From Fibrobacterota bacterium (GTDB lineage Bacteria; Fibrobacterota; Chitinivibrionia; Chitinivibrionales; Chitinispirillaceae), in contig PLTF01000123.1 of NCBI GenBank assembly GCA_003164335.1, forward strand, positions 3,558 through 46,735: 43,178 nt of DNA, in the 5' to 3' direction. Positions 1,681 through 25,603 of the stretch are shown piece after piece. Numbering within the stretch: the first letter of the stretch is position 1; each line of letters opens with the position of its first letter. The translations under genes were made by a program, and so were the position numbers. A model generated the notes under the pieces. That model did no database searches, had not been told where the DNA came from, and saw nothing but the letters and a program-made list of their open reading frames with translations.

Positions 1681-2409
1681 TCACTTCTTCAGCTCGTCAG
1701 CCTTCTTTTTTTCAAGACTATCCTTTGCCTTTTGCTCCGCTTTTTCCTTCTTCTTAAAAAATCCCCACAACAGGAAGTTGCTTTGCGCGGCATGGATATC
1801 CTCGTTCAATCCCTTGCTCCCCTTTTTGAGACTCACGATAGTCTGGCCGATATTATTCGCCATCGTCGAATCTTCGATCAATTTCCAGAGGGTACCGTGC
1901 CCGTTATTGATTTTGGTCATCATATCCGCCAGCTGCCCCGAAATAACGGCAGCATTCTCCGCGGTAACTTTCAGTTTTGCGATGATGGCGTCGGTTTCAA
2001 CCGGCTCCAGGGAGCCGATCTCCTGGCCGTCCTGCACCATTGCCGCGCCGTTGCTGCCCTGCGTTATATTCAGCAGCCGGTCGCCGATTATTCCGGCGGA
2101 TCCTATGCCCACCTGACAATCGGTTTTTATGAACGGCCGGACGCTCTTTTTAATCAGCATTGCGACCCGAACCGTCGAATCGTTGATAATAGTGATATTA
2201 TCGACGGTGCCCACGTTTATTCCCGAAAACCGGACATTGCTGCCGACCTGTAACCCGCCGACATTATGGAACGTTGCGGTAAGTTTGAAAACGGGATTGA
2301 ACATATTCTTCTGTTTCCCGATGATGAATATGCCGGCCACAAACAGCGCGAGGCCGCCCGCAATAAACAATCCCAGCCGTATTTTGTAGTGGGAAGTCGG
2401 TGAATTCAT
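1681..2409 (-). CDS. mlaD: MlaD-like MCE-domain lipid-transport protein
   Basis: Substrate-binding subunit of an Mla-type ABC system that moves phospholipids between inner and outer membrane. The 242-residue protein has one N-terminal membrane helix (about residues 10-30, IRLGLFIAGGLALFVAGIFI) and then one MCE domain (about 38-115) with FHNVGGLQVGSNVRFSGINV and VGIGSAGIIGDRLLNI. After it comes a helical region, and the tail is very rich in Lys and Glu (KKKEKAEQKAKDSLEKKKAD), which is unusual and probably periplasmic. It follows mlaF after 34 bases and mlaE before it, so the three form one transcription unit. No mlaC or mlaB is next to them. Strong family call; the transported lipid and direction are inferred. 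Confidence 0.93.
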   Translation of the reverse strand: MNSPTSHYKIRLGLFIAGGLALFVAGIFIIGKQKNMFNPVFKLTATFHNVGGLQVGSNVRFSGINVGTVDNITIINDSTVRVAMLIKKSVRPFIKTDCQVGIGSAGIIGDRLLNITQGSNGAAMVQDGQEIGSLEPVETDAIIAKLKVTAENAAVISGQLADMMTKINNGHGTLWKLIEDSTMANNIGQTIVSLKKGSKGLNEDIHAAQSNFLLWGFFKKKEKAEQKAKDSLEKKKADELKK

Positions 2410-2443
2410 GGTGTTAAGTCCCGGTTTCAGGATAGAGTCATGG

Positions 2444-3223
2444 CTATTTGAAGAATGCTTTTATTGCCCCATCGGTTGAGTTCTCAAAAGTTTCAAAGGT
2501 CCCTTCAAGATAAACTTTTCCGTCCAGCAGCATGATCATGCGGTCCGCGGTCGCGCGGGCGCAGGCGATATCGTGCGTGATAATGATGGACGAGGTTTTG
2601 TATTTTTTCCGCGAATCATTGATGAGAACGCTTATTTCATCCGAGGTCACCGGGTCAAGACCGGTTGTCGGTTCGTCATACAGCATGATCACCGGGTCCA
2701 CGACAATGGTCCGCGCAAGGCTTATCCGCTTGAGCATGCCCCCGGAAAGCTGCGAGGGCATCTTATCGATAGCCTCGTAAAGGCCGACATGGTCCAGGAC
2801 CTCCTTGATTTTTGCATCCCTTTGCTCCTGTGTAAGACTTCTCCTGATTCTTCGCAGGGGGAATTCCAGGTTCTCACGCACGGTCATGGAGTCGTAGAGC
2901 GCGCCGCTCTGGAACAGGAACCCGATTTTCTTGCGCAGCTCTCCCAGGCCATCGCTGTTCAGCGTTTCCACATTTTCTCCCAGAACGGTGATGGTCCCGG
3001 CATCGGGATCCAGCAGGCGCACGATGCATTGTATGAGGACGGATTTTCCCGAACCCGATTTTCCCAGTATGGCAAGATTTTCACCTTCGTAAAGATTGAG
3101 CGAAACGCCCTTCAATACTTCCTGGCTGCCGAATCCCTTGACGAGACCGTTTATGGCGACGGCCTCTTTCCGGCTGTCTGCCGGGCCTCGGTCGCCGGGT
3201 ACAGGTTGAGTAACGGGTGCCAT
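2444..3223 (-). CDS. mlaF: MlaF-like ABC transporter ATP-binding protein
   Basis: ATPase subunit of the Mla-type lipid transporter, acting at the cytosolic face of the inner membrane with the MlaE permease. All nucleotide-binding motifs are present in the 259 residues: Walker A GKSGSGKS (54-61), Q-loop FLFQSGALYDSMTV, signature LSGGM (159-163), Walker B IMLYDEPTTGLDP (180-191) and H-loop THD (His217). The FQSGALYDSMTV and LSGGMLKR segments are typical of the Mla/Ttg2A subfamily rather than importers of small solutes. The first 20 residues are Pro/Asp-rich and not part of the fold. A candidate AAGGAA site is about 11 bases before the ATG. It lies 74 bases after mlaE. Confidence 0.95.
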   Translation of the reverse strand: MAPVTQPVPGDRGPADSRKEAVAINGLVKGFGSQEVLKGVSLNLYEGENLAILGKSGSGKSVLIQCIVRLLDPDAGTITVLGENVETLNSDGLGELRKKIGFLFQSGALYDSMTVRENLEFPLRRIRRSLTQEQRDAKIKEVLDHVGLYEAIDKMPSQLSGGMLKRISLARTIVVDPVIMLYDEPTTGLDPVTSDEISVLINDSRKKYKTSSIIITHDIACARATADRMIMLLDGKVYLEGTFETFENSTDGAIKAFFK

Positions 3224-3297
3224 TATTCGCCGAAGTTCCTTATAGCCATGTCAGAGGGTTTCGCCCATGCCGCACCGTGACGCGTGATGCGCCAGCC

Positions 3298-4098
3298 TCA
3301 CAGCAAATCGGTAATCTGTACGGCAATCATATCGACAATGATCACCAGCCCCGAGGATATCACCACCGCCGAATTGGCCGCAATGCCGACGCTCTCCGTT
3401 CCGCGCCCGGCGGTATATCCCTTGTAACATCCGACAAGACCGATCGCAGCGCCGAAAAAAAACGATTTAACCACTGCCGGCAGGAAGTCCATAAACTTAA
3501 CCTGGGCGAACGCCTGGGAGAAAAACAGGACAAAGGTGATATCCCCCTTGATATTTGCACCCGCCCAGCTTCCGACGATGCCGAGTCCGTCGGCATACAG
3601 GATCAGGAGCGGAATCATGATCGTGGCCGCCAATACCCGGGGGACAACCAGGAATTTTATGGGGTTGGTAGCCGATACTTCCATGGCATCGATCTGCTCG
3701 GTTACCCTCATCGACCCGAGTTCCGCTCCCATGCTCGAGCCGATCTTTCCCGCGCAGAGCAGTGCGGTAATGACCGGCGCGATCTCCCGTATGAGCGATA
3801 TGGCCACCATGCCGGGAAGCATGGCAACCGCCCCGAAACCGGCGAGCGCGGGACGCGACTGGATGGTAAGGACGAGACCCATGATGATCCCGGTTACCGA
3901 AATAAGCGGCAGGGATTTATAGCCGATCTGGAAACACTGCCGTAAGAATTCCCTGAATTCAAAATCGCGGGAAAAGGTTTCCCTGAGGATACGCGTCAGG
4001 AATAACGCGACATCGGCGATTGCGGATAACAGCCGGAGAGCGGCTCTTCCGGTTCCGGAAACGTTCCTGCCGGTACTCGTGGGTTGTTTTGTCGTCAT
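3298..4098 (-). CDS. mlaE: MlaE-like ABC transporter permease
   Basis: Inner-membrane permease of the Mla-type lipid transporter, 266 residues. Hydrophobic segments and the conserved family blocks SLPLISVTGIIMGLVLTIQS, REIAPVITALLCAGKIGSSM, AELGSMRVTEQIDAMEV and VPRVLAATIMIPLL are all visible, as is the C-terminal GCYKGYTAGRGTESVGIAA block. The reading frame stays open upstream to 4344, but that part runs through the 3' end of the GH130 gene in another frame, so the ATG at 4098 (MTTKQPTS) was chosen; it begins 35 bases after the GH130 stop. With mlaF and mlaD downstream it makes a complete core transporter. Confidence 0.94.
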   Translation of the reverse strand: MTTKQPTSTGRNVSGTGRAALRLLSAIADVALFLTRILRETFSRDFEFREFLRQCFQIGYKSLPLISVTGIIMGLVLTIQSRPALAGFGAVAMLPGMVAISLIREIAPVITALLCAGKIGSSMGAELGSMRVTEQIDAMEVSATNPIKFLVVPRVLAATIMIPLLILYADGLGIVGSWAGANIKGDITFVLFFSQAFAQVKFMDFLPAVVKSFFFGAAIGLVGCYKGYTAGRGTESVGIAANSAVVISSGLVIIVDMIAVQITDLL

Positions 4099-4133
4099 GT
4101 ATCGCGCTACCGGTGCAGGCGGGTCTCCCCGCG

Positions 4134-5075
4134 CTATGCCCTTTGGTCCAGCCACTCCAGCATGGCACGGATACTGCCCGTGGCAAGGGCTATGCTCGAA
4201 TCCGCCGCACCGTAGTAAATGTTCAGGGTATCGCCGTCGGAATTGACGGTATACCCGCATGGGAAAACGACATTGTCGACATCTCCCTGGCGTTCGTACG
4301 GTTCTTCGGGACCGAAAACCCACTCGTCTCCCCGCTTCAGGCACTTCTCCGGCGTGTGAAGATCAAACAGCGCCAGCCCGAGCCGGTAGATGCACCCTGC
4401 GCCGGTTATCTTTACTCCATGATAAATAACCAGCCAGCCCCGCGCTGTTTCGACGGGCGGGGTCGAAAGACCGATTTTATTGGCATCCCACCAGGAACCG
4501 CGCCGCGCCGCGAGCATGATCTTGTGACTTCCCCAGTGACGCAGGTCCGATGAGTAGGATATCCAGATGTTCGCTTCGGGGCCGTTTACCGGGCGATGGA
4601 TGAGCGCCCAGTAATCGCCGAGCCGGCTGGGCATGAGCGCCGCATCCTTGTCATCAGGCGACATGATTTCGCCGAATCGCTCGAAGGAGTGAAAATCTTC
4701 GGTAAGCGCCAGCGCCACCCCCGGGCCTTCACGGCTGAAGGTGGTAAAGACAACGGCGAATTTCCTGAGTTCTGGAACCCACGTTATGCGCGGGTCCTCT
4801 ATTCCCCACAGCTCTTCGGGGAAGTGCACGGGGTCGGGTCGAAGGGTCGGCTCGGCATCGATCTTCCAGCCATCCACCCCGTTGGCCGACCGTGCAGCGC
4901 ACAGGTGCGAATGGCCGCGCCGGTCCTCGACCCTGCAGAGAAGCAGCGTCGTTCCGTCCGGCAGCAGGGCTGCGCCGGGGTTGAAGACGCTGTTGACCGG
5001 ATAGGGCCAATCCGCAGCGGTCAAAATCGGATTGAGCTTATGCCGGTGAAAGAGTTCGGGATGCTGGTTGCTCAT
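4134..5075 (-). CDS. GH130-type glycosidase/phosphorylase
   Basis: Five-bladed beta-propeller enzyme of glycoside hydrolase family 130, which contains beta-mannoside phosphorylases and some hydrolases. In the 313-residue protein the family signatures are FNPGAALLPDGTTLLLCRVEDRRGHSHL, WGIEDPRIT with the likely proton-donor Asp94, DAALMPSRLGDYWALIHRP, and the C-terminal DNVVFPCGYTVNSDGDTLNIYYGAAD. There are two candidate starts: ATG at 5084 overlaps the upstream stop as ATGA but has GGAGG only one base away, while ATG at 5075 has the same GGAGG ten bases away and was preferred. No signal peptide, so cytosolic. It directly follows a GT4 enzyme, so both probably act on the same mannose- or glucose-containing glycan. 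Substrate not determinable. Confidence 0.9.
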   Translation of the reverse strand: MSNQHPELFHRHKLNPILTAADWPYPVNSVFNPGAALLPDGTTLLLCRVEDRRGHSHLCAARSANGVDGWKIDAEPTLRPDPVHFPEELWGIEDPRITWVPELRKFAVVFTTFSREGPGVALALTEDFHSFERFGEIMSPDDKDAALMPSRLGDYWALIHRPVNGPEANIWISYSSDLRHWGSHKIMLAARRGSWWDANKIGLSTPPVETARGWLVIYHGVKITGAGCIYRLGLALFDLHTPEKCLKRGDEWVFGPEEPYERQGDVDNVVFPCGYTVNSDGDTLNIYYGAADSSIALATGSIRAMLEWLDQRA

Positions 5076-7855: not shown

Positions 7856-8782
7856 TCAGTTCAGGGAGACATTGACTGCAATTCCAATGCCGGGATAATT
7901 CTGATTGTACATATAATAGCCGCCGTTGTAATAATTAATGTATACATCGTCATTATCGTACCAGTCGCCCGGCCAGGTTTCAGGCCATGGGTCAAGCATA
8001 CTGAACCAGAAACCATTGCAATAAAATCGGGGGTGCCCGCCATATATCGCCAGTGAGAAGCCGGACATCCGGAACCCGTGCCTCGGACCGAAGTAACCGT
8101 CGAAACGATCCTGGGGGATACGGTAGCCGTCGTACCCGCCGCGCTGCTGCCAGGTGCGATGCTCGGCCTGCCAGTCATGGGCGCGATGCTGCTGCCAGAC
8201 TGCCTGCCGCTGTTCCTGCGGTACCGGCTGCCCGCGCTGTGCAGACCGGCCGGCCGGCGCCTGTTGCGATCTGGGATGCTGACCCTGCTGCTGCTGAGGC
8301 CTTGCCTGCTGCTGAGGCCTTGCCTGCTGCTGAGGTCTGGCCTGCTGCTGGTGCTGACCTTGCTGCTGCTGAGGTCTGGCCTGCTGCTGCTGAGGTCTGG
8401 CCTGCTGCTGGTGCTGACCTTGCTGCTGCTGAGGTCTGGCCTGCTGCTGATGCTGACCTTGCTGCTGCTGAGGCCTTGCCTGCTGCTGACCCTGCTGCTG
8501 CTGAGGTCTTGCCTGCTGCTGCCCCTGCTGCTGCTGAGGCCTTGCCTGCTGCTGCTGAGGTCTGGCCTGCTGCTGGTGCTGCTGGCCCTGAGGTGCATTA
8601 GCCTGGTACTGCTGACCCTGCTGTTGCGGCTTGGTCTGCTGTGGGTGCTGACCCTGCTGCTGTTGTGGTTTGGCCTCCTCCTGATGCTGCTCCTGCGCAT
8701 AGCGCGGAGCAACGGTTGCCACCAGTAGTAGAATCCCCAAACGAGCCGTCATAACCATTGCCCCACGACTGAATTTGCTCAT
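7856..8782 (-). CDS. Secreted Gln-rich repeat protein
   Basis: A 308-residue exported protein. A signal peptide (about residues 1-29, ending PRYA before QEQHQEE) is followed by about 140 residues of low-complexity repeats based on ARPQQQQ and GQHQQQ units, then RSQQAPAGRSAQ and a folded C-terminal part with many aromatic residues (WQQHRAHDWQAEHRTWQQRG, YCNGFWFSMLDPWPETWP, DDVYINYYNGGYYMYN and a final PGIGIAVNVSL). The aromatic C-terminal block resembles short surface or periplasmic proteins found in Acidobacteria and Proteobacteria, of unknown role. GGAGGG lies seven bases before the ATG at 8782. Repeat number is probably unstable. A strong-looking antisense ORF over the repeats is a shadow of the CTG/CAG periodicity. 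Confidence 0.8.
   Translation of the reverse strand: MSKFSRGAMVMTARLGILLLVATVAPRYAQEQHQEEAKPQQQQGQHPQQTKPQQQGQQYQANAPQGQQHQQQARPQQQQARPQQQQGQQQARPQQQQGQQQARPQQQQGQHQQQARPQQQQGQHQQQARPQQQQARPQQQQGQHQQQARPQQQARPQQQARPQQQQGQHPRSQQAPAGRSAQRGQPVPQEQRQAVWQQHRAHDWQAEHRTWQQRGGYDGYRIPQDRFDGYFGPRHGFRMSGFSLAIYGGHPRFYCNGFWFSMLDPWPETWPGDWYDNDDVYINYYNGGYYMYNQNYPGIGIAVNVSLN
8265..8700 (-). repeat. CTG/CAG-rich minisatellite inside the Gln-rich gene
   Basis: Tandem repeats of 21-bp (encoding ARPQQQQ) and longer combined units, with near-identical copies such as gaggtctggcctgctgctg recurring many times. All changes keep the reading frame. Such arrays expand and contract by slippage or recombination, so copy number may differ between strains or be miscounted in assembly. 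Confidence 0.9.
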
Positions 8783-8966
8783 ATCTGCACCCTCCATTTT
8801 AAGGAAAATCGAATAATTTCAGGTAATAATTCGGGAGTTATCCTATAGAATCGGTAAGGCAATGCTGTTCCCGTCTTTGCCTGCAGAAGAGAGCGCCACC
8901 CTATTATTATAGGTATTTCCGGATAAAAGGAGCAAATTGCCCGGAATTGCCCTGCCGGATCCCTGT

Positions 8967-11276: not shown

Positions 11277-11416
11277 CCGGCTCAGCCATCCAAAAGAATT
11301 TGACTTTGCCTTTTCTTTTGGATTCCGGCTCAGCCATCCAAAAGCATTTGAAGTTTCTTCTGCTTTTGGATTCCGGCTCAGCCATCCGAATGAAGTTGAC
11401 TTTGATTTTGAATTTG
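11277..11416. repeat. 48-bp tandem repeat, about three units
   Basis: Units begin ccggctcagccatcc at 11277, 11325 and 11373. Each of the first two contains a hairpin of ccaaaag and cttttgg around an A/T-rich loop. As 48 is a multiple of three, the minus strand stays open with a 16-residue repeat (FGWLSRNPK...), but there is no ribosome site or plausible protein around it, so it is not called as a gene. Confidence 0.75.
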
Positions 11417-15726: not shown

Positions 15727-17178
15727 ATGAGTAAGATTGTAACCTGCATGCTCGCCTTTATGGCGCTTGCTACCATCAGTTTTGCCGGAGACAGTACCGA
15801 AAGTACAACGTACGGCGAACGGGCCGGGGCATTTTCAATCTCACCATTTGTGGGATGGTACAACTACGACGAAACCCAGCTCCTGTACACGCGGCCTGTT
15901 TATGGTGCGCGGCTGGGCTATGACATCACCAACCATTTCGGCGTGGAGGCGGTTTTTAACTACAATGCCACAGAATACCCGATTTCCAACGGATCGTCGG
16001 AAGATGCAAGCGCCTTTAATTACCGCCTGGACTTCCTCTATAATTTTATTCCCTGTGGACCCGTGGATCCCTACATCGCCGCAGGCCCGGGTGCAACTCG
16101 CCTTTACTCAATATACCCGGGAGTTGTCGATCCGGGAGCCGCGGGTGAATCGACCAATAATGACTTCACTCTTAACGTCGGCGGCGGGCTGAAATGGTTC
16201 CTGTCTGAATCCTTTGCCCTGAGGGCCGATGTCCGCCATTTGTGGCTTTTTGATAATGTAAAAGTAACCGATAACACAATCCGTAACAACTGGGAGTACA
16301 CTGCAGGTGTGGATTTCCTGTTCGGCGGTAAAAAATATAAAAAGGTCCCGGAGGCAATGGCGACCGAAGCTCCGGCACCGGCAATAGTAGCAGCGCCCGA
16401 AGCACCGCTCGAACCAATTCCGGCCTATGAACCGACTCCGGAAAAGACCAAATACTTTGTTTACCTGAATGTCGAGTTCGACATCGCGAAGGCCAATATC
16501 CGGCCGCAATACCGCGATTCGATAGCAAGGGTCGGCGACTTCATGAAGAAATATCCCGGCACCAACGCCGTTATCGAAGGATACACCGACTCGGTAGGCG
16601 GCGATGAATACAACATGAAGCTCTCGCAGGAGCGAGCCGACAGCGTCGTGAAATCCCTTGAAGTCAATTTCGGCATAGACCCCTCCCGCCTTACCGCCAA
16701 GGGGTACGGCAAAACGATGCCGGTGGCTACCAATGCAACCTGGGCAGGGAGACAGGCAAACCGGCATATCAGGGCCATTATCGACGGTGCCCTCGATGTC
16801 GCCGGGTTAACCACACCCCCGGACATGCTTGCCATGTCCCTGAACGTTGAGTTCAATTCGGCTAGCGCCGAGATCCAGCCGGCCTATTTCGACAAAATCA
16901 ACAAAGTCGGCGATTTTATGAAGCAGTACCCGGCCACCAACGCCATTATCGAAGGGCATACGGACAACGACGGCACTGATGAGCAACTCATGGCGCTCTC
17001 CCAGCAGCGCGCCGAAAGCGTGGTAGCCTACCTCGTGGATAAATACGGGATCGATCGCTCCCGCTTTACAGCCAAAGGATATGGGAACACCCGCCGCATC
17101 TCCTATAATAAAACCGCCGAAGGAAGACAGAGGAACAGGAGAATCGACGCCATCATCGAATTCCCCCTTGCTAAGTAA
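15727..17178 (+). CDS. OmpA-type outer-membrane protein with two OmpA C-terminal domains
   Basis: A 483-residue protein that should link the outer membrane to peptidoglycan. Order: signal peptide (1-20, ending SFA before GDS), an eight-strand-type beta-barrel (about 30-205, from FSISPFVGWYNYDE to YTAGVDFLFGG), a Pro/Ala hinge (about 215-238), and two OmpA C-terminal domains at about 241-357 and 360-478. Both carry the peptidoglycan contacts: GYTDSVGG with LSQERAD and NRHIRAII in the first, GHTDNDGT with LSQQRAE and NRRIDAII in the second. Two binding domains in one polypeptide are unusual. GGAGG stands before the ATG and a strong terminator follows. Monocistronic. Confidence 0.93.
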   Translation: MSKIVTCMLAFMALATISFAGDSTESTTYGERAGAFSISPFVGWYNYDETQLLYTRPVYGARLGYDITNHFGVEAVFNYNATEYPISNGSSEDASAFNYRLDFLYNFIPCGPVDPYIAAGPGATRLYSIYPGVVDPGAAGESTNNDFTLNVGGGLKWFLSESFALRADVRHLWLFDNVKVTDNTIRNNWEYTAGVDFLFGGKKYKKVPEAMATEAPAPAIVAAPEAPLEPIPAYEPTPEKTKYFVYLNVEFDIAKANIRPQYRDSIARVGDFMKKYPGTNAVIEGYTDSVGGDEYNMKLSQERADSVVKSLEVNFGIDPSRLTAKGYGKTMPVATNATWAGRQANRHIRAIIDGALDVAGLTTPPDMLAMSLNVEFNSASAEIQPAYFDKINKVGDFMKQYPATNAIIEGHTDNDGTDEQLMALSQQRAESVVAYLVDKYGIDRSRFTAKGYGNTRRISYNKTAEGRQRNRRIDAIIEFPLAK

Positions 17179-17556: not shown

Positions 17557-18444
17557 ATGTTGAAAAAAGAACTATCGGTCGCTCTCATTGGAATTGCTTG
17601 TCTGGCGATATTCTATCTCTCCTTTGGCCAGTTTACCAGGGATACCGCCCGGGGTACGCCGGACGAGAAGATAATTCAGAATAATTCAGAAGGTGTTTCA
17701 GACAGGGCTCAGGCAAAGGGTGCCGCCGGTACCCTGCAGGCCGGCCAGAAGGATAAAGCGGATTCCGTTCTGTTTAAGGCGCAGGGTACTGCCGCGACGT
17801 TGCGGGGTAAAGCCCAGGGTACGGCAGATTCGGTACTGGATAAAGCGCAGGGTTCTGCTACAACGCTGCGGGGAAAAGCCCGGAGTACCGCCGATTCATT
17901 GCGGGCCAAACAGAAGGGTACGGCGGATTCGGTGCTGAACAAAGCGCAAGGCACCGCCACGACACTGCGGGCCAACCAGAGAGACACCGCCGATTCAGTG
18001 CTCTCTAAAGCGCAGGGGACAGCTACAACGTTGCGGGCCAACCAGAAGAGTACGGCAGATTCAGGGCTGACAAAGGCCCAGGGTACCGCCACGACATTGC
18101 GGGCTAAACAGAAGGGTACCGCAGATTCAGTGCTTTCTAAAGCGCAGGGAACAGCTACTGCCTTGCGGGGTGAAGCTCTTGGTACGGCGGATTCAGTATT
18201 GTCCAAAGCGCAGGGTACCGCGTCTTCATTGCGGACCAACCAGAAGGGTATTGCCGATTCATTGCTGTCAAAAGCGCAGGGTACCGCAGATTCGGTCCTG
18301 TCAAAAGCGCAGAATACCGCCACTTCTTTGCGGGCCAACCAGAAGGGTTCGGCAGATTCATTGCGGGCTGCTGAAGCGCAGGCCCCGGCGGATTCGGTGC
18401 GGGAAAATCCGGAGAAACTGTCAGGGAGCAATAGCAAAAAATAG
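17557..18444 (+). CDS. Secreted hendecad-repeat rod protein (no barrel domain)
   Basis: A 295-residue exported protein. A signal peptide (about 1-24, ending LSFG before QFTRDT) is followed by a short linker and then 20 unbroken 11-residue units at residues 51-270, one further unit with a one-residue insertion, and a short tail ending SNSKK. Consensus x-[KN]-[AQ]-[QK]-G-T-A-[DT]-[ST]-[VL]-[LR], with units alternating ADSVL and ATTLR so that the higher-order period is 22. Small and aliphatic residues recur at i, i+3, i+7, as in 11/3 helices of LEA and apolipoprotein type. It shares the QFTRDT..GT..EKI mature start with the next two proteins but lacks their C-terminal domain. AAAAGGAAA precedes the ATG. 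Structural or membrane-coating role is inferred. Confidence 0.82.
   Translation: MLKKELSVALIGIACLAIFYLSFGQFTRDTARGTPDEKIIQNNSEGVSDRAQAKGAAGTLQAGQKDKADSVLFKAQGTAATLRGKAQGTADSVLDKAQGSATTLRGKARSTADSLRAKQKGTADSVLNKAQGTATTLRANQRDTADSVLSKAQGTATTLRANQKSTADSGLTKAQGTATTLRAKQKGTADSVLSKAQGTATALRGEALGTADSVLSKAQGTASSLRTNQKGIADSLLSKAQGTADSVLSKAQNTATSLRANQKGSADSLRAAEAQAPADSVRENPEKLSGSNSKK
17707..18366 (+). repeat. 33-bp coding tandem repeats, 20 units
   Basis: Twenty in-frame 33-base units without any gap encode the 11-mers of the first rod protein. Copies such as aaagcgcagggtaccgcc recur with mostly synonymous or conservative changes. Regular spacing may mislead CRISPR finders, but there are no unique spacers. 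Confidence 0.9.
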
Positions 18445-18480
18445 CTCCCTGCAACGAGTGCAAAAATATAGGAAAACGTC

Positions 18481-20610
18481 GTGATAAAAAACTGGAAAAC
18501 TCGTACCGCCGGCATGATGATTACTTTTTTAATTATGTCTTCTTTCTGCTACGGCCAGTTTACCAGGGATACCTCCGGCGGTACGCAAAACGAGAAGATA
18601 GTCCAGAAAGTATCCGCGGGAGATTCAGCGCGAGCTGCGGCCCAGGGTACTGCAGACTCGGTGCTGGCTAAAGCGAAGGATACCGCTGCGGCACTGCGGA
18701 CCTTGCAAAGGGGTACCGCCGATACGTTACGGAACAAAGCGCAAGGTACCGCCGATTCGGTGCTGTCCAAGGCTCAGGGCAGCGCCACTTCATTGCGCGC
18801 AAACGAGAAGGTTACGGCGGATTCGGTACTGAATAAAGCGCAGGGTACCGCAACTTCATTACGGATTAACGAAAAGGGTACTGCAGATTCAGTGCTTCAT
18901 AAGGCGCAGGATACTGCAGCCTCCCTGCAGGTCAATGCGAAGGGTACTGCGGATTCCATCCTATCCAGAGAGCGCGGTACCGCAACTTCCCTGCGGGCTA
19001 ACGAGCAGGGTACCGCGGATTCAGTACGTGCCAGCGAGAAGGGCACTGCCGATTCATTGCGGGAAGGCGCTCAAGGTACCGCCAAATCATTGCGGGCCGA
19101 CGAACAGGATACCGCCAATTCACTGCGTGCCAGCGAACGAGGCACCGCAAAGGCATTACGCGCTGATGAGAAGGGTACCGCCGATTCACTGCGGGCCAGC
19201 GAGCGGGGTACCGCGGATTCGGTGCGCGCAGCCTCTGATCTGTCAATTAAGGAGCATCAGACTAAATCCAAGGACTCTACCAAGTTCGATATGTTCGGCG
19301 ATTTATTGCAGGACGACTCGGGCTATAACAGAAAAAGGCCGCTATGGATACCTATTGCCGAAATTCCGCCAGTAGAAGTTGCAACATGGGCCGACGACCG
19401 GTATGTTTCAAATGCAAATTGGGCGCGGATTAGTTTTACGACATGGTCTGAAAATGTCAAAGGACCCTGGAGTTGGGACACCGACCGGTTTGGAGAGAAT
19501 TTTCTGTTGCATCCTTATGGAGGCAACCTGAGTTTTGTCGATGCCAGGTCTAACGGTTATAATTTCTGGGAATCAAGCCTGTTTCCGGTAGGGTCAAGTT
19601 TAATGTGGGAATATTTCGGTGAAAACACTTCCCCTTCATATAATGATGAAATTAACACGGCTTTATCCGGCGCATTCCTGGGAGAAGTGCTGTATCGGCT
19701 GAGCTCAAATGTATTGGATGACCGGACAATCGGAACGGAGAGATTTATCCGGGAATTCGGCGCAGCGGTACTCTGCCCTACCAGGTTTCTTAACCGGGCT
19801 ATCCAGGGAAAACTTTCGAGTGTAACGGATAGCGAAGTATATCAGAAAGCCCCGATCAATATAGAGTTGTCATTAGGCAATCGATGGAAAAATAATGGAA
19901 GCAACTTCGGAACCGGTTCCCAAAACCCAACCATAAACGCGTTGTTTGAATATGGATATCCCTTCGAAATAAAGGATTGGAAACCTTTTGATTATTTCAG
20001 TCTTCGCGCGGATTTAAATTTCGGCGTGGGCAGGAAAATACTCGACAATATTACAGGATATGGAATCCTGTTCGGAAAAAATATCCCGTCAATGGATAAT
20101 AGCCTTCAAATTCTTCTGGGGATATTCCAGCATTATAACTACTTTGATAATTCGACGTTCGAACTCGGGACCATAGCATACGGCCCGGGAATAATGTCGC
20201 AATATAAAATATCCAAATCGACCTTCCTTTTCACTAATTTCCATGTCGCCGCAATACCGCTGGCAGGGAACAGCACCCAATTCGGACCCAATACCGATAC
20301 CGCCAGAGATTACAATTTTGGCGACGGGGCGGAAACGAAGCTGGAATGCGGTCTGAATCTCGGGTGGGGAAGCCTCCAATTTATCGGCAATTATTATTGG
20401 ATTTACACTTATGTCGGGGAAGCGGGCAATAATTTTATCGGTATCATAAGGCCCAGAATTACCATCAGGCTTTATCATAACCTGAACATTGGGGCCGAGG
20501 AATTGCTCTATATGACGGATAGATATACCTCTGATAATGGCAATTTCCATGTCGCCAGAACCGAACAGCGAATTTATCTTATGGGGAATGTTGGAAATTT
20601 CAAACTCTGA
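18481..20610 (+). CDS. Hendecad-repeat rod fused to DUF3943-like outer-membrane domain (copy 1)
   Basis: A 709-residue protein with a GTG start, AGGA nearby and 36 bases after the previous stop. Signal peptide about 1-25 (ending FCYG before QFTRDT); 18 consecutive 11-mers at residues 52-249, consensus x-[AN]-[EA]-[QKR]-G-T-A-D-S-[VL]-[LR]; a linker SIKEHQTKSKDSTKFDMFGDLL; then a DUF3943-type domain (about 290-450) with DTDRFGENFLLHPYGG, ARSNGYNFWESS, WEYFGENTSPSYND, GEVLYRLSSNVLDD and REFGAAVL, and beta-strand-rich segments to the end (RTEQRIYLMGNVGNFKL), consistent with an outer-membrane barrel. The helix should be periplasmic and about 30 nm if straight. Role unknown; a spacer or tether between outer membrane and a deeper partner is inferred. 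Confidence 0.84.
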   Translation: MIKNWKTRTAGMMITFLIMSSFCYGQFTRDTSGGTQNEKIVQKVSAGDSARAAAQGTADSVLAKAKDTAAALRTLQRGTADTLRNKAQGTADSVLSKAQGSATSLRANEKVTADSVLNKAQGTATSLRINEKGTADSVLHKAQDTAASLQVNAKGTADSILSRERGTATSLRANEQGTADSVRASEKGTADSLREGAQGTAKSLRADEQDTANSLRASERGTAKALRADEKGTADSLRASERGTADSVRAASDLSIKEHQTKSKDSTKFDMFGDLLQDDSGYNRKRPLWIPIAEIPPVEVATWADDRYVSNANWARISFTTWSENVKGPWSWDTDRFGENFLLHPYGGNLSFVDARSNGYNFWESSLFPVGSSLMWEYFGENTSPSYNDEINTALSGAFLGEVLYRLSSNVLDDRTIGTERFIREFGAAVLCPTRFLNRAIQGKLSSVTDSEVYQKAPINIELSLGNRWKNNGSNFGTGSQNPTINALFEYGYPFEIKDWKPFDYFSLRADLNFGVGRKILDNITGYGILFGKNIPSMDNSLQILLGIFQHYNYFDNSTFELGTIAYGPGIMSQYKISKSTFLFTNFHVAAIPLAGNSTQFGPNTDTARDYNFGDGAETKLECGLNLGWGSLQFIGNYYWIYTYVGEAGNNFIGIIRPRITIRLYHNLNIGAEELLYMTDRYTSDNGNFHVARTEQRIYLMGNVGNFKL
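18634..19227 (+). repeat. 33-bp coding tandem repeats, 18 units
   Basis: Eighteen contiguous 33-base units, no insertion or deletion, encoding residues 52-249 of the first fusion protein. The first half alternates ADSVL and ATSLR units, the second half is richer in ASER/ADEQ units ending SLR, so there are two repeat sub-types in order. Confidence 0.9.
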
Positions 20611-20638
20611 AGGCTGTGCAGGAATTACGGAAAATAAC

Positions 20639-22783
20639 GTGCTTAAAAACAGGAATCAATGTGCCGCCGGCATGGGGTTCACTCTTTTAATTATGTCAAC
20701 TCTCTGCTATAGCCAGCTTGCCAGGGATACCGCCGGAGGAACGCCGGACGAGAAGATAGTCCAAAAAATATCCGCGGGAGATTCAGCGCGAGCTGCGGCC
20801 CAGGGTACTGCAGACTCTGTGCTGGCTAAAGCGAAGGATACCGCTGCGGCACTGCGGACCTTGCAAAGGGGCACCGCCGATTCGTTACGGAACAAAGCGC
20901 AAGGTACCGCCGATTCGGTGCTGTCCAAGGCCAAGGGCAGCGCCACTTCATTGCGCGCAAACGAGAAGGTTACGGCGGATTCGGTGCTGAATAACGCGCA
21001 AGGAACCGCAGCCTCATTACGAATTAACGAAAAGGGGACTGCAGATGCAGTCCTTCATAAAGCGCAGGATACTGCCGCCTCCTTGCAGATCAACGCGAAG
21101 GGAACTGCGGATTCCATGCTGTCCAAGGAGCGGAGTACCGCAACTTCCCTGCGGGCTAACGAGCTGGGTACCGCGGATTCAATACGTGCCAGCGAGAAGG
21201 GCACTGCCGATTCGCTGCGGGCAGGCGCGCAAGATACCGCCAAATCATTGCGGGCCGACGAGCAGGATACCGCCAATTCACTGCGTGCCAGCGAACGAGG
21301 CACTGCAAAATCATTACGCGCTGATGAGCGGGGTACTGCGGATTCTCTGCGGGCCAATCAGCGCAGCACAGCCGATTCAGTGCGGGCTATGTCGGAACTG
21401 TCAATTAAGGAGCATCAGATTAAATCCAAGGACTCCACCAGATTCGATATGTTCGGTGATTTATTGAAGGACGATTCGGCCTATAACGGAAAAAGGCCGT
21501 TGTGGATACCACTTGTCGAGGTGCCGGCCGGCGATTTTATAACATGGTCGCTGGACCGGTATGTCGCTAAAGAGAAATTCGCATTGAGTACCTGGGACAC
21601 TTTGAAATTTAAATTAAGAGGCGAATGGTGGCAATGGGACTTTGACAAATTCGGCATGGGTTTCTGGGCCCATCCCTATTCCGGCTCGATAAGTTATTTA
21701 GATGCCCGGTCCAATGGTTATAATTTCTGGGAATCCTATCTTTTTTCGTTTGAGGGGAGTATACTGTGGGAATATTTTGGCGAAAATACCCCTCCGACGC
21801 CGAATGATCTGCTCAGCACCTCCATAAACGGACCGTTCTATGGAGAGATACTGTACCGGTTAAGCTCTAACGTTCTGGACGACAGGACCATAGGAACCGA
21901 GAGATTTTTCAGGGAATTCGGCGCCGCGGTTCTCAGTCCGACAAGATTTTTCAACCGGCTCATTCAGGGGAAACTTACCAGTGTAACGGATACCGAAGTA
22001 TACCAGAAAGCACCGCTTAACATAGAGTTGGCAGCGGGTTTCCGAAGGGAAAATTATGGGGCCAAATTCGGGTCGGACACGGTCCAGAGTGTATTGTTCA
22101 ATATGCAGCTTGATTATGGATATCCCTTCGAAACAAGGGAATGGAGGCCCTTCGATTACTTCACTCTTCGGGCGGACGTAAATTTAGGAGCCGGGAAAAA
22201 AATACTCGACAATGTAATCGGACAGGGAATATTATTCGGCAAGAATCTCGATTATGGCGATAACCTTAAAATACTGCTCGGGATATTCCAACACTATGAC
22301 TACTTCGATAATACGACCTTCGAGCTCGGCACCATTGCCTTCGGCGGTGGAATTATGACGCAATATACCATAGCAAAATCGACCTATCTTTTTACCACGC
22401 TCCACGTCGCCGGGATACCCCTGGCGGAGAATACGACGCAAACGGGTCCATCCGATACTTCTCAAGTCAGGGATTTCAATTATGGCGACGGAATTGAAAC
22501 AAAGTTTAAATGCGGCCTTAATTTCGGCTGGGGATGCATCGAAATCCCCATTTATTATTACTGGATCAATACCTATGTCGGACTATCAGGTCTTAATAGG
22601 GGGGAAAATTATATCGGTATAATGAGGCCGAGAATTACCGTGAGGCTCTATCATAATCTTAACCTTGGAGCCGAAGAAATGATATATCTGACCGACAGGT
22701 TTACCCCGATCGGGGACTTTCATGCCGATAGAACCGAGCAGAGGGCTTACCTTATGCTCAATGTTGGAAATTTCAAACTCTAA
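20639..22783 (+). CDS. Hendecad-repeat rod fused to DUF3943-like outer-membrane domain (copy 2)
   Basis: Paralogue of the preceding gene, 714 residues. The GTG at 20639 was chosen because it aligns with the GTG start of copy 1 and gives a signal peptide (MLKNRNQCAAGMGFTLLIMS, then TLCYSQLARDT); the open frame reaches back into the previous gene. Eighteen 11-mers again occupy residues 52-249, in the same order of variants as copy 1, followed by the same SIKEHQ..FDMFGDLL linker. The DUF3943-like part keeps FWAHPYSG, ARSNGYNFWESY, WEYFGENTPP, GEILYRLSSNVLDDRTIGTE and NVGNFKL but is clearly more diverged than the rod. So the rod is more conserved between paralogues than the barrel. Tandem duplication, 28 bases after the previous stop. 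Confidence 0.84.
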   Translation: MLKNRNQCAAGMGFTLLIMSTLCYSQLARDTAGGTPDEKIVQKISAGDSARAAAQGTADSVLAKAKDTAAALRTLQRGTADSLRNKAQGTADSVLSKAKGSATSLRANEKVTADSVLNNAQGTAASLRINEKGTADAVLHKAQDTAASLQINAKGTADSMLSKERSTATSLRANELGTADSIRASEKGTADSLRAGAQDTAKSLRADEQDTANSLRASERGTAKSLRADERGTADSLRANQRSTADSVRAMSELSIKEHQIKSKDSTRFDMFGDLLKDDSAYNGKRPLWIPLVEVPAGDFITWSLDRYVAKEKFALSTWDTLKFKLRGEWWQWDFDKFGMGFWAHPYSGSISYLDARSNGYNFWESYLFSFEGSILWEYFGENTPPTPNDLLSTSINGPFYGEILYRLSSNVLDDRTIGTERFFREFGAAVLSPTRFFNRLIQGKLTSVTDTEVYQKAPLNIELAAGFRRENYGAKFGSDTVQSVLFNMQLDYGYPFETREWRPFDYFTLRADVNLGAGKKILDNVIGQGILFGKNLDYGDNLKILLGIFQHYDYFDNTTFELGTIAFGGGIMTQYTIAKSTYLFTTLHVAGIPLAENTTQTGPSDTSQVRDFNYGDGIETKFKCGLNFGWGCIEIPIYYYWINTYVGLSGLNRGENYIGIMRPRITVRLYHNLNLGAEEMIYLTDRFTPIGDFHADRTEQRAYLMLNVGNFKL
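20792..21385 (+). repeat. 33-bp coding tandem repeats, 18 units
   Basis: Eighteen contiguous 33-base units, nearly identical to those of the preceding paralogue position by position (for example gcagactcggtgctggctaa against gcagactctgtgctggctaa). This suggests recent duplication or gene conversion of the rod part. Confidence 0.9.
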
Positions 22784-22866: not shown

Positions 22867-23742
22867 ATGAATAGCAAGGCCTTTACTAAAACCTGCCTCC
22901 CTGCCTTGATAATGCTTACGCTCGCGGGCGGCATTTGTTTTGCAGACGAGACGCAACCCCAATCCGCCTCCTCCGATAGTTCGTTTCACCCGTTTAAGGA
23001 GAATCTCTGGGTCAGCGGCGGAATCCTTGGAGCGGGACTCATCTCCGACTACTTTTTGGTGCGGACGATACTCCATAAACCGAGCATTGACAGTTCAGTG
23101 TTGGCCGGATTGAACACCAATGCCTACGAAAACTGGTTCGACCGGTGGGCGCTGAAACTGGACCCTTCGCAGAGAAACACCTTTGAGACGTACTCCTCCA
23201 ACCTGGCTCTTGCCATCTATTGCCTGCCGGCCTTCCTGGCTCTTGACGAAAGTATCAGGCGCGACTGGGTGGACATGCTCGGGATGTATCTCGAAACCCA
23301 ATCGATTACCTTCAGCGTTTACAATATCAGTCCCCTGGGGCCTAATTTTCAAGGTAAATACCGGCCGCTTGCCTATTATAATCTGCCGGATAACCAGAGA
23401 AATTCGGGAAACAATCGCAATTCGTTTTACAGCGGGCATACCGCCTCGGCCACGACCGCAACCTTTTTCATGACCAAGGTCTATCTCGATTACCATCCGG
23501 ATCTGGGGTGGGGAAAATATCTGTTGTACGGGGCCGCATCGGTTCCGCCGCTTTTCATGGGATATCTGCGGGTACGGGCGCTCGATCATTTCCCGTCCGA
23601 TATCGCGGCCGGCTTCGTCATCGGGGCTTTGTGCGGCGTGCTTGACCCGGAACTTCATCGCATCAAGAACCGGAACATTTCGCTTGCAGGGTTATCCACA
23701 TCGAACGGCGGGACGGGACTCTGCATAAAATGGGGGCAATGA
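22867..23742 (+). CDS. PAP2-superfamily protein, divergent motif 1
   Basis: A 291-residue exported protein of the type 2 phosphatidic acid phosphatase superfamily, which removes phosphate from lipids such as phosphatidate, undecaprenyl pyrophosphate or lipid A. Signal peptide about 1-26 (ending CFA before DETQ). Motif 2 reads SFYSGHT (canonical PSGH has Pro; here Tyr) and motif 3 RVRALDHFPSD fits R-x5-H-x3-D with both catalytic His. Motif 1 is only GKYRPL: the Lys is two residues before RP rather than seven, so this site is altered. The Gly-rich first hydrophobic segment and LMGYLRVR region suggest membrane helices. GGAG precedes the ATG. It follows the rod-barrel genes by 83 bases and is probably co-transcribed. 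Confidence 0.85.
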   Translation: MNSKAFTKTCLPALIMLTLAGGICFADETQPQSASSDSSFHPFKENLWVSGGILGAGLISDYFLVRTILHKPSIDSSVLAGLNTNAYENWFDRWALKLDPSQRNTFETYSSNLALAIYCLPAFLALDESIRRDWVDMLGMYLETQSITFSVYNISPLGPNFQGKYRPLAYYNLPDNQRNSGNNRNSFYSGHTASATTATFFMTKVYLDYHPDLGWGKYLLYGAASVPPLFMGYLRVRALDHFPSDIAAGFVIGALCGVLDPELHRIKNRNISLAGLSTSNGGTGLCIKWGQ

Positions 23743-23807
23743 CACGGGATAATTCGTTCACCGCCGGATGGATTGATCCTTCCTATAATAAAGCAAGGTG
23801 CCGCGCC

Positions 23808-24584
23808 ATGAAACCTGCCTGTATTAAAACACTTATCGCCATTACCCTTGGCGGCACAACCCTCTTTGCCCAGAACAAATACGATGTAACCGAATTCAAG
23901 GACGAGACCATCCAATTCGTCGAGCAGCCCCTCAACTGGGAGGTCGGCGACTGGCTGAAATTCGGCCTGGTCGCCGGTGCAACCGTGGCTGCCACACAGG
24001 CCGACCAACCGGTCCGCAATATCGTGCAGAGAAATCCCGGCTATTTGAATTCGGTTCCGATCCAAGCCGGCTATTACTGGGGTGTCGGGTATCCAACGGC
24101 AATTTTAGGGGTGGGGTTCGGCCTCACCGGCTGGCTCGACGATTATACTCCGCTGAAAAAAATCGGCTTTGAAATAATCCAGGCGACGGCTTACGCCGAG
24201 CTCACTAAAAGCCTGTTTACCTATTCGGTCGGCAGGTCGCGACCCTATAACAACAAGGGACCGGGCGTTTTCAGGCCGTTCGATCTCCTCGACGGAGCCT
24301 ATCAATCCTTTCCCGGCGGCCATGCTACCGCAGCCTTTGCGCTTTCAACCGTTCTGGCGGAAAATACCAATTCCATCTGGCTTAAAATATTGTGCTATGT
24401 ACCCGCGGGACTGACCGACGTTGCCCGTGTCTATGAGGACTCCCACTGGACCTCGGACCAGGTTTTTGGCACCGCCATCGGCATTTTTGTGGCAAGCTGG
24501 GTCGTTAACCAGCATAAACCGGGTAAGAAGTCACGGGTAAAAATATCCTCGGTTTACCCGCCATCGGTAAGCGTTACCTTTTGA
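23808..24584 (+). CDS. PAP2-superfamily protein, altered motifs 1 and 2
   Basis: A 258-residue exported or membrane protein. The start MKPACIKTLIAITLGGTTLFAQ (23808) gives a signal peptide; the upstream open frame overlaps the previous gene and has no signal. Motif 1 is TYSVGRSRP, where the canonical Lys position holds Thr; motif 2 is SFPGGHATAAFA (Gly in place of Ser); motif 3 RVYEDSHWTSD fits R-x5-H-x3-D. Both His residues needed for phosphate transfer remain, so activity is possible. N-terminal region KYDVTEFKDETIQFVEQPLNW resembles periplasmic PAP2 proteins found with outer-membrane proteins. It is 65 bases after the first PAP2 gene and ends the five-gene block. Confidence 0.85.
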   Translation: MKPACIKTLIAITLGGTTLFAQNKYDVTEFKDETIQFVEQPLNWEVGDWLKFGLVAGATVAATQADQPVRNIVQRNPGYLNSVPIQAGYYWGVGYPTAILGVGFGLTGWLDDYTPLKKIGFEIIQATAYAELTKSLFTYSVGRSRPYNNKGPGVFRPFDLLDGAYQSFPGGHATAAFALSTVLAENTNSIWLKILCYVPAGLTDVARVYEDSHWTSDQVFGTAIGIFVASWVVNQHKPGKKSRVKISSVYPPSVSVTF

Positions 24585-24765: not shown

Positions 24766-25012
24766 GACCGTTCGACCACCCTCTTCAATCCCTGCCCTCC
24801 CCTATCAGGAGCCACTCCTCTTTAAGGCGCGCTTCGTCGCAGTACAACTCCCGGCAAGTGCCGGAATTGACTCAAAATCGCCACCTATACCCGATTTCCG
24901 GGCAGCAACAAATTTATTTCCCCTTGTTTCGTATTCATTACGGCTGTTTTTTTAACCGCTTAAGTTGCGACTAAACAAGTATAAAATTTCTTCAGGGAAG
25001 GGAGACGTTGTT

Positions 25013-25603
25013 ATGAAACAGAAAAAATTCAGCGCTGCAACTATGACGCTCTCGTGTTGTCTCGCCTTATCACCGGCAGTTATCGGTTCAGCAAGGGCCG
25101 CAAATCTGGCGAATATGATGGGAATCTCCATGACCGCTAACCCGATAGAAAATTCAGGCAATATTCTGCTTTTGGCGCTGCCTGTCTCTGCCGTGGGATT
25201 ATCATTATTCCACGAGGATCTTACCGGATTATTTCAGTATGGAGCCTCCGCAGCGCTCACCGAAGGAACGACGCTCCTTCTGAAAAACAGCGTTCATGAG
25301 TTGCGGCCTAACGGCTCCAATTACCTCTCATTTCCATCGGGCCATTCATCGACGACTTTTGCCGCGGCGGCATTTATTCAGAGACGCTACGGATGGGGAC
25401 TCGGGATTGCCGCCTATGCGCTTGCGGCATTTACCGGCTATTCCCGCGTTGAATCGAAAGAGCATTATTTTCATGATGTTGCGGTCGGAGCCGCGATCGG
25501 CGTCGGCAGCAGCTACCTGTTCACCAAGCCATTCCATAACTTTAATATTCAGCCGACAACCGATGGAAAGCATGTGGGCGTTACCGTGAGCACGGCTTTC
25601 TAA
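25013..25603 (+). CDS. PAP2-superfamily phosphatase, canonical motifs
   Basis: A 196-residue protein with all three PAP2 motifs in standard form: KNSVHELRP (K-x6-RP), FPSGHSS and SRVESKEHYFHD (SR-x5-H-x3-D). A signal peptide or first membrane helix covers about residues 1-33 (ending GSARA before ANLAN). Hydrophobic segments LLLALPVSAVGLSLF and GWGLGIAAYALAAFTGY fit a small membrane phosphatase; the length is like LpxE/PgpB-type short members. GGGAG stands eight bases before the ATG at 25013. The 3' end overlaps the converging glycosyltransferase gene by four bases. It is separated from the other two PAP2 genes by a MITE copy and may have its own promoter. Confidence 0.9.
   Translation: MKQKKFSAATMTLSCCLALSPAVIGSARAANLANMMGISMTANPIENSGNILLLALPVSAVGLSLFHEDLTGLFQYGASAALTEGTTLLLKNSVHELRPNGSNYLSFPSGHSSTTFAAAAFIQRRYGWGLGIAAYALAAFTGYSRVESKEHYFHDVAVGAAIGVGSSYLFTKPFHNFNIQPTTDGKHVGVTVSTAF

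Follow-up and report, generated by a model that had tools for sequence, protein, structure and literature searches.

A 43,178-nucleotide stretch of contig PLTF01000123.1 (assembly GCA_003164335.1, Fibrobacterota; positions 3,558 to 46,735), referred to here as the window, carries three adjacent genes with long 11-residue repeats, two of which continue into a DUF3943 domain and a predicted outer-membrane barrel. The locus seems to offer a natural example of an outer-membrane enzyme whose linker grew, in a single lineage, into a straight helical stalk some 30 nm long. On the best reading, the lipocone-barrel is of a known kind and carries a hendecad stalk. We lean towards the explanation that this stalk is lineage-specific, was added to a probably acquired lipocone-barrel, and oligomerises the proteins and/or spaces the enzyme-barrels in the periplasm. 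The genes and their parts, in window coordinates, are as follows.

15727..17178, + strand: upstream neighbour, OMP barrel with two OmpA peptidoglycan-binding domains, ending 378 bases upstream of gene 1
17557..18444, + strand: gene 1, putative signal peptide and free hendecad rod, without lipocone or barrel
17719-18378, + strand: rod of gene 1, 20 units
18481..20610, + strand: gene 2, putative signal peptide, hendecad rod, YfiM-Griddle lipocone (DUF3943) and predicted 12-strand outer-membrane barrel
18613..19239, + strand: rod of gene 2, residues 45-253, 19 x 11 residues
19345..19806, + strand: predicted helical lipocone region of gene 2, residues 289-442 (Pfam DUF3943 match at 330-433)
19855..20595, + strand: predicted beta barrel of gene 2, residues 459-705, 12 strands
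20639..22783, + strand: gene 3, paralogue of gene 2 with equal domain order by sequence
20771-21397, + strand: rod of gene 3, 11-mer repeats
21629-21940, + strand: Pfam DUF3943 match of gene 3
22867..23742, + strand: PAP2-superfamily phosphatase a, motifs YSGH and RVRALDHFPSD (KxxxxxxRP motif unmatched by the pattern used)
23730..24584, + strand: PAP2-superfamily phosphatase b, overlapping the end of phosphatase a
24965..25603, + strand: PAP2-superfamily phosphatase c, 380 bases after phosphatase b

The open reading frames of the rod genes span 17557-18444, 18481-20610 and 20537-22783. Since the GTG at 20639 lies opposite the GTG start codon of gene 2 in the alignment, gene 3 probably begins there and encodes a protein of 714 amino acids. 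Signal peptides of all three products were judged by eye.

Hendecad repeats and predicted fold of the rods

The 11-mers run without a single insertion or deletion through residues 55-274 of the gene 1 product (20 units) and residues 45-253 of the gene 2 and gene 3 products (19 units each, the first being degenerate in both). The initial annotation had counted 20, 18 and 18 units; the first figure stands, and the other two become 19 if the degenerate unit is included. Self-identity at a lag of 11 residues was 0.35, 0.44 and 0.46 in genes 1, 2 and 3, far above the maxima of 0.18, 0.21 and 0.19 among 2000 shuffles each, which confirms the long gap-free repeats described earlier for these three genes. 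At a lag of 22 residues it was higher (0.62, 0.56 and 0.54); adjacent units thus alternate, and the underlying repeat spans two of them (2 x 11 residues).

Alanine occupies repeat position 3 in 20/20, 18/19 and 18/19 units of genes 1, 2 and 3, position 6 is mostly leucine or valine, and position 10 mostly alanine, glutamate or glutamine. Positions 3, 6 and 10 have the 3-4-4 spacing of the a, d and h sites of a hendecad and carry its hydrophobic or small residues, so that, judged by sequence, the rods show the hendecad coiled-coil register. Alanine-rich cores have been described for such coiled coils in the available part of PMC9858780. The core is weak in part, since position 7 is arginine in 10-13 units and position 10 is glutamate or glutamine in 8-10. 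Hydrophobic periodicity peaks at 98.0-98.5 degrees, matching 11 residues in three turns, and the rods are rich in Ala, Thr, Ser, Lys, Asp and Gln. The top two NCBIfam matches of gene 1, DivIVA-like Wag31 (2e-11) and Scy (6e-9), were both far below cut-off.

AlphaFold modelled residues 46-275 of gene 1 as a helix, with pLDDT of at least 90 at 170 of 295 residues on a three-row alignment, and the gene 2 rod as helices 43-126 and 138-262 with a break at 127-137 and ten-residue mean pLDDT of 40-78. The straight helical rods proposed earlier are thus borne out by the predicted helix (confident in gene 1, weak in gene 2) together with the periodicity, and the proposed length of about 30 nm agrees with about 31 nm at full extension (209 x 0.15 nm) for a rod fused to an outer-membrane protein. 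The low confidence for the gene 2 rod, its break and the three-row alignment of gene 1 count against the stalk, and repeats with this much Ala, Thr, Ser and Gly might lack a fixed fold in solution even though AlphaFold draws them as helix. Sequence searches of solved structures with gene 1 and with the alignment of the region after the rod returned zero matches.

The lipocone-barrel, its gene neighbours and its relatives

PF13084 (DUF3943) matched genes 2 (5e-32, 110.4 bits) and 3 (1.7e-30, 105.5 bits) against a gathering cut-off of 27; the Pfam search gave no DUF3943 match for gene 1. DUF3943 corresponds to the "YfiM-Griddle" lipocone, predicted to be an outer-membrane enzyme acting on lipid head groups; the text available from PMC12419801 describes an outer-membrane role and a PAP2 context for it. 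The proposed active-site residues H344, E377/E381 and D389 are intact in both genes and occur in 62 (H344), 61 (E377), 63 (E381) and 63 (D389) of 63 alignment rows; these His, Glu and Asp residues were assigned to pocket helices H2, H3 and H4 from the text of that source, not from its figure. The "DUF3943-like barrel" of the initial annotation is two parts: in gene 2, AlphaFold predicts DUF3943 as a helical domain in front and a separate C-terminal barrel of 12 strands. All 50 PDB matches listed for this barrel are outer-membrane proteins, with low target-normalised TM-scores of 0.16-0.59. Genes 2 and 3 are predicted to encode YfiM-Griddle lipocone-barrel proteins with lipid head-group activity. 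No report of enzymatic activity was found in the portion of the DUF3943 literature at hand, and for HP0803 the available part of PMC3688963 notes only unexplained binding to a GTP-coated particle.

Among relatives, a PAP2 homologue lies at most 400 bases downstream of DUF3943 on the same strand in 20/67 cases and upstream in 1/68; the remaining 47/67 have no same-strand PAP2 downstream, nine of them having one on the other strand. Phosphatase b represents the commonest PAP2 neighbour, and homologues of phosphatase a adjoin DUF3943 too. The sole NCBIfam match of phosphatase c was the LpxE lipid A 1-phosphatase (1.1e-11, 44.8 bits vs a cut-off of 177).

Of 80 DUF3943 loci, 71 passed the length and 5'-end filter and 61 entered the alignments after omission of ten, namely L023 (poor start guess) and nine apparent near-copies by name. 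In a tree of 35 rows from 32 hand-chosen loci, 12 same-phylum rows and our own two, genes 2 and 3 joined two Ignavibacteriota rows with support of 100/97. No DUF3943 was found in 39 genomes drawn from its genus, family and order. Given the branch shared with Ignavibacteriota, the lipocone-barrel and PAP2 cassette was probably acquired. Mis-binning of the contig is thought unlikely, as the S41 peptidase it carries has long matches, at 54-67%, in genomes of the same genus and the same family. Viral contigs yielded no relative in the DUF3943 search.

At a threshold of 1e-8, the search of 166 further genomes from the phylum found no counterpart of the rod. Two weaker matches outside the genome were set aside: the first, L109 (1.9e-5), is an LEA-like protein encoded by a gene of its own, and the second, L100 (2.9e-4), lies on the strand opposite the KADAKAEKAAP repeat at the C-terminus of another ORF, which we take to be a peptidyl-prolyl isomerase. 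An 11-residue period occurred in 0/134 other DUF3943 ORFs; those with under ~32 residues before the core score 0 by construction and cannot hold a rod. A rod-barrel architecture recurring across lineages had been named earlier as supporting evidence, and absence outside this genome as a refutation; the fusion was seen nowhere else, which by that test counts against a general periplasm-spanning system. Among the titles listed on DUF3943, lipocones, coiled-coil tethers, Scy/FilP hendecads and hendecad or 11-residue-repeat envelope proteins, none described it.

Origin and possible roles of the stalk

Under the favoured explanation, an envelope-lipid cassette of outer-membrane lipocone-barrel proteins and PAP2 phosphatases was probably acquired, and the linker that joins signal peptide to lipocone, itself variable, would have become a straight hendecad coiled-coil stalk of ~31 nm. 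Duplication of the stalked gene would have given genes 2 and 3, gene 1 being a free stalk that shares their N-terminal half. The stalk would hang in the periplasm and most likely make the proteins oligomerise, with gene 1 possibly supplying a filler strand, and/or it would keep the enzyme-barrels spaced away from the other layers of the envelope. The 47/67 relatives without same-strand PAP2, the low barrel TM-scores and the free end of the rod, where Pfam listed no peptidoglycan-binding or inner-membrane domain (genes 1-3, E up to 1), count against this explanation. The bare free end also leaves the earlier claim of a defined periplasmic span without support.

A LEA- or apolipoprotein-like rod, one that is disordered in water and becomes an amphipathic helix when it meets membranes or dries out, could instead protect or coat the inner face of the outer membrane, which we regard as rather unlikely. 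The 11- and 22-residue periods and the composition agree with it, as do the weak similarity of gene 1 to the Pfam apolipoprotein domain (0.0039, below cut-off) and the protein at L109, a secreted-looking 11-mer product of a separate gene in one DUF3943-bearing Ignavibacteriota genome. However, mean hydrophobicity is 0.02-0.08 with a moment of about 0.2, and the core alanine is strictly kept in a-d-h register; the membrane coating suggested earlier is thus possible but less likely. No LEA family, LEA_4 included, was found for genes 1-3 in NCBIfam (E up to 0.01) or Pfam (E up to 1, although the filters of HMMER remove most hits weaker than about 0.1).

The rod could also be a merely tolerated linker, passively expanded by unequal exchange of 33/66-base units. 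The 134 rod-less DUF3943 ORFs and the linker before the lipocone, variable in length and sequence among relatives, fit this, as do the DNA arrays of 33, 66, 99 and 132 bases, the two gaps of exactly 11 residues by which the gene 1 rod differs from those of genes 2 and 3, and the recently homogenised N-terminal halves of the latter. Across whole units, pN/pS is 0.42-0.79, a moderate constraint only, which like the weak core counts against a stalk. However, between units pS is 0.53-0.69 vs a pN of 0-0.05 at the core alanine, which from these values is kept under constraint while synonymous sites are scrambled. Moreover, genes 2 and 3 align over 209 codons without an indel (dN 0.05, dS 0.26), and the free rod is a gene of its own. 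We consider passive expansion improbable.

A tether of the SlpA/OmpM type, joining the outer membrane to the cell wall or inner membrane and setting periplasm width, is very unlikely: the order of long N-terminal helix and C-terminal barrel is SlpA-like and the length near-equal (the coiled coil of Deinococcus SlpA, joined to a C-terminal barrel, measures ~28 nm in the part of PMC9388160 at hand), but in genes 1-3 Pfam (E up to 1) listed neither SLH nor any other domain that binds peptidoglycan ahead of the rod, only ~19 residues separate the cleavage site (by eye) from the rod, and the fusion was not found in relatives.

In a very unlikely extension of the stalk explanation, the three rods would co-assemble into a mixed hendecad stalk made of two enzyme-barrels and the free strand of gene 1, a molecular ruler that sets the distance of the outer-membrane lipid head-group enzymes from the neighbouring-gene PAP2 phosphatases, or their reach to them. 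If true, it would couple a lipid-phosphate step in one membrane to a step in the other. Stalk-less homologues, 58-59% identical, are available for comparison and offer a way to test the function of long periplasmic stalks, and the paralogues at the locus offer a setting to test the predicted head-group activity of the DUF3943 lipocone.

Comparison with known envelope systems

The FapF barrel is among the structural matches listed for the gene 2 barrel. FapF carries a periplasmic coiled coil before its barrel and, unlike genes 2 and 3, is not known to have a lipocone. Deinococcus SlpA and OmpM consist of SLH, a coiled coil and an outer-membrane barrel. They share with the proteins described here a long N-terminal helical segment of similar length and a C-terminal barrel (for SlpA, PMC9388160, available part), whereas here SLH is missing, hendecads take the place of mainly heptads, and a lipocone stands between the rod and the 12-strand barrel. 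Scy and FilP have the same 11-residue coiled-coil register and alanine-rich core (PMC9858780, available part), in line with the weak NCBIfam similarity of gene 1 to Scy, but they are Gram-positive cell-division proteins; the rods have a putative signal peptide and an outer-membrane fusion, and the score is far below the family cut-off. The YfiM-Griddle lipocone-OMP proteins have DUF3943, conserved His/Glu/Asp, a C-terminal barrel, tandem copies and PAP2 neighbours in common with this locus (PMC12419801, available part), which differs from them in that a 209-residue hendecad rod replaces the ordinary linker and a free-rod gene stands in the same gene row.

Gene layout and lipocone-barrel proteins

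The three adjacent genes encoding 11-residue-repeat rods were called as the following open reading frames:

17557–18444, same strand as g2 and g3: g1, rod alone
18481–20610, same strand as g1 and g3: g2, rod followed by DUF3943 and an outer-membrane barrel
20537–22783, same strand as g1 and g2: g3, paralogue of g2 with the same domain order

The start of g3 is most likely GTG at 20639, since this codon aligns with the start of g2. The g1–g2 and g2–g3 gaps are then 36 and 28 bases, and PAP2a, the first of three PAP2-superfamily phosphatase genes identified by Pfam downstream of g3, begins 83 bases after it. Judging by this spacing, g1-g2-g3-PAP2a appear to be arranged as in an operon. A promoter and terminator scan revealed 12 terminator-like sites versus 13.6 in shuffled sequences, i.e., no excess.

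Pfam DUF3943 was found in g2 and g3. A 2025 eLife paper (PMC12419801) assigns DUF3943 to the lipocone superfamily as its YfiM-Griddle family, for which activity on lipid head groups at the outer membrane is predicted. The paper also describes nearly obligate fusion or operonic association with outer-membrane barrels, up to three YfiM-Griddle proteins side by side, and operons that can include PAP2 phosphatases. The AlphaFold model of g2, with helices at residues 289–442 followed by 12 strands at 459–705, agrees with the lipocone and barrel described there. All 50 PDB matches listed for this model were outer-membrane proteins, with modest target-normalised TM-scores (0.16–0.59). Residues H344, E377, E381, and D389 were conserved in 62, 61, 63, and 63 of 63 aligned rows (g1 excluded) and are all present in g2 and g3.

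For 67 relatives, 1 kb or more of sequence was available after DUF3943. In 20 of these, a PAP2 homologue was located within 400 bases downstream on the same strand, in 9 there was one in that place on the opposite strand, and 34 had one anywhere in the locus; it was just upstream in 1 of 68. The contig carrying this lipid cassette also contains an Mla-type lipid transport operon (adjacent MlaD, ABC ATPase, and MlaE genes; 1681–4344, minus strand). A single ORF at 15727–17178 encodes an OMP barrel with two consecutive OmpA peptidoglycan-binding domains. The protein encoded at 7856–8797 (minus strand) contains a long stretch of Gln-rich QQQARPQQQQGQ repeats, and its C-terminal part is rich in aromatic residues; it has no Pfam matches at 1e-5. 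A 48-base direct repeat (2.7 copies) occupies 11277–11404, in a stretch lacking ORFs of at least 150 aa.

Repeat structure of the rods

The g1 rod consists of 20 gap-free 11-mers, the number initially annotated, here placed at residues 55–274; g2 and g3 have 19 each (residues 45–253) rather than the 18 reported earlier. Lag-11 self-identity in g1, g2, and g3 was 0.35, 0.44, and 0.46, versus maxima of 0.18, 0.21, and 0.19 among 2000 shuffles each. Lag-22 identity was higher (0.62, 0.56, and 0.54); therefore, the units alternate. Ala occupies position 3 in 20/20, 18/19, and 18/19 units, Leu or Val occupies position 6 in 19, 17, and 16, and in most units position 7 is Arg or Leu and position 10 is Ala, Glu, or Gln. 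Positions 3, 6, and 10 are thus spaced 3-4-4, and hydrophobic periodicity is maximal at 98.0–98.5 degrees, matching 11 residues per three turns. AlphaFold predicted a single helix in g1 (46–275; 170 residues with pLDDT of at least 90, from a three-row alignment) and two helices in the g2 rod (43–126 and 138–262; ten-residue mean pLDDT 40–78).

The g2 and g3 rods differ by no gaps in 209 codons (dN 0.05, dS 0.26), and downstream of the rod dN is 0.24 and dS 1.29. The lower dS points to recent copying between the N-terminal halves of the two genes. Adjacent and next-adjacent units within each rod showed pS of 0.53–0.69 and pN of 0.25–0.42 (ratio 0.42–0.79), and unit-to-unit pN at the core alanine was 0–0.05. 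These codon comparisons indicate that the rod core is under purifying selection and the rest of the unit is only moderately constrained.

Distribution and origin

The initial annotation envisaged a general periplasm-spanning rod-barrel system. Searchable data did not bear this out, since none of 134 other distinct DUF3943 ORFs from the loci examined (131 with an upstream stop codon) had an 11-residue period before the DUF3943 core. The highest lag-11 identity in this region was 0.17, versus 0.36 in g2 and 0.37 in g3. DUF3943 was present in 86 of 391 genomes of the class to which the genome of one relative (L015) belongs, a set partly overlapping the genomes already sampled; the longest open frame among those listed (642 residues) lacked the rod. 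The g1 rod had no match at 1e-8 in 166 other genomes of the phylum; among 59 relatives searched at 1e-3, a single one had a match, which was weak and antisense. Matches in its own genome were limited to g1, g2, and g3. In 14 genomes of DUF3943 relatives, the only match, a weak one, was a LEA-like protein with KAKSTKDKAES-type 11-mers (L109, 1297–2127, minus strand), separate from DUF3943, in an Ignavibacteriota genome also bearing DUF3943. The fusion may occur outside the loci and genomes covered here, for instance in metagenome contigs.

Outside this genome, 12 of 59 relatives carried DUF3943. All 12 belong to the same phylum but to different families from this genome, and none of 39 genomes sharing its genus, family, or order had DUF3943. 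A tree of 49 rows placed g2 and g3 as sisters (support 100/100), joining two Ignavibacteriota rows (100/97). Eleven of the 12 same-phylum rows formed a separate clade, and the twelfth (L003) was on a long branch of unsure position. The GC content is 47%–55% at about 9–33 kb versus 51%–62% in the flanks, a soft contrast, and the S41 peptidase of the contig matches genomes of the genus and family. Therefore, the contig probably belongs to this genome, and the lipid cassette was probably acquired.

Possible role of the rods

Since the rod is N-terminal to an even-stranded C-terminal barrel, it is presumably periplasmic. We lean towards a hendecad stalk that would oligomerise and space the predicted outer-membrane lipocone-barrel enzyme, with g1 serving as a free strand. 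A LEA- or apolipoprotein-like rod seems rather unlikely; mean hydrophobicity is about 0 with a moment of about 0.2. The g1 matches to Pfam DivIVA (0.00028) and apolipoprotein (0.0039) were both under the cut-off. The top two of five NCBIfam families matching g1, Wag31 (2e-11) and Scy (6e-9), were among matches all far under the cut-off. Two DUF3943 relatives (L015 and L016) align to the parts of g2 that flank the rod, the signal peptide region and KSxDSTxFxMFGxLL, with a shorter linker between them, suggesting that the rod either took the place of a linker or expanded from one. That it is only a tolerated linker expansion appears less probable still than a LEA- or apolipoprotein-like rod. A true tether is the most doubtful reading. 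Taking 0.15 nm per residue, rod length would come to about 31–33 nm.

The spacing of rod positions 3, 6, and 10 matches the a-d-h register of hendecad coiled coils described in PMC9858780, where Ala-rich hendecad cores are also reported for FilP and Scy. The rod length is close to that of the SlpA coiled coil, given as about 28 nm in PMC9388160.
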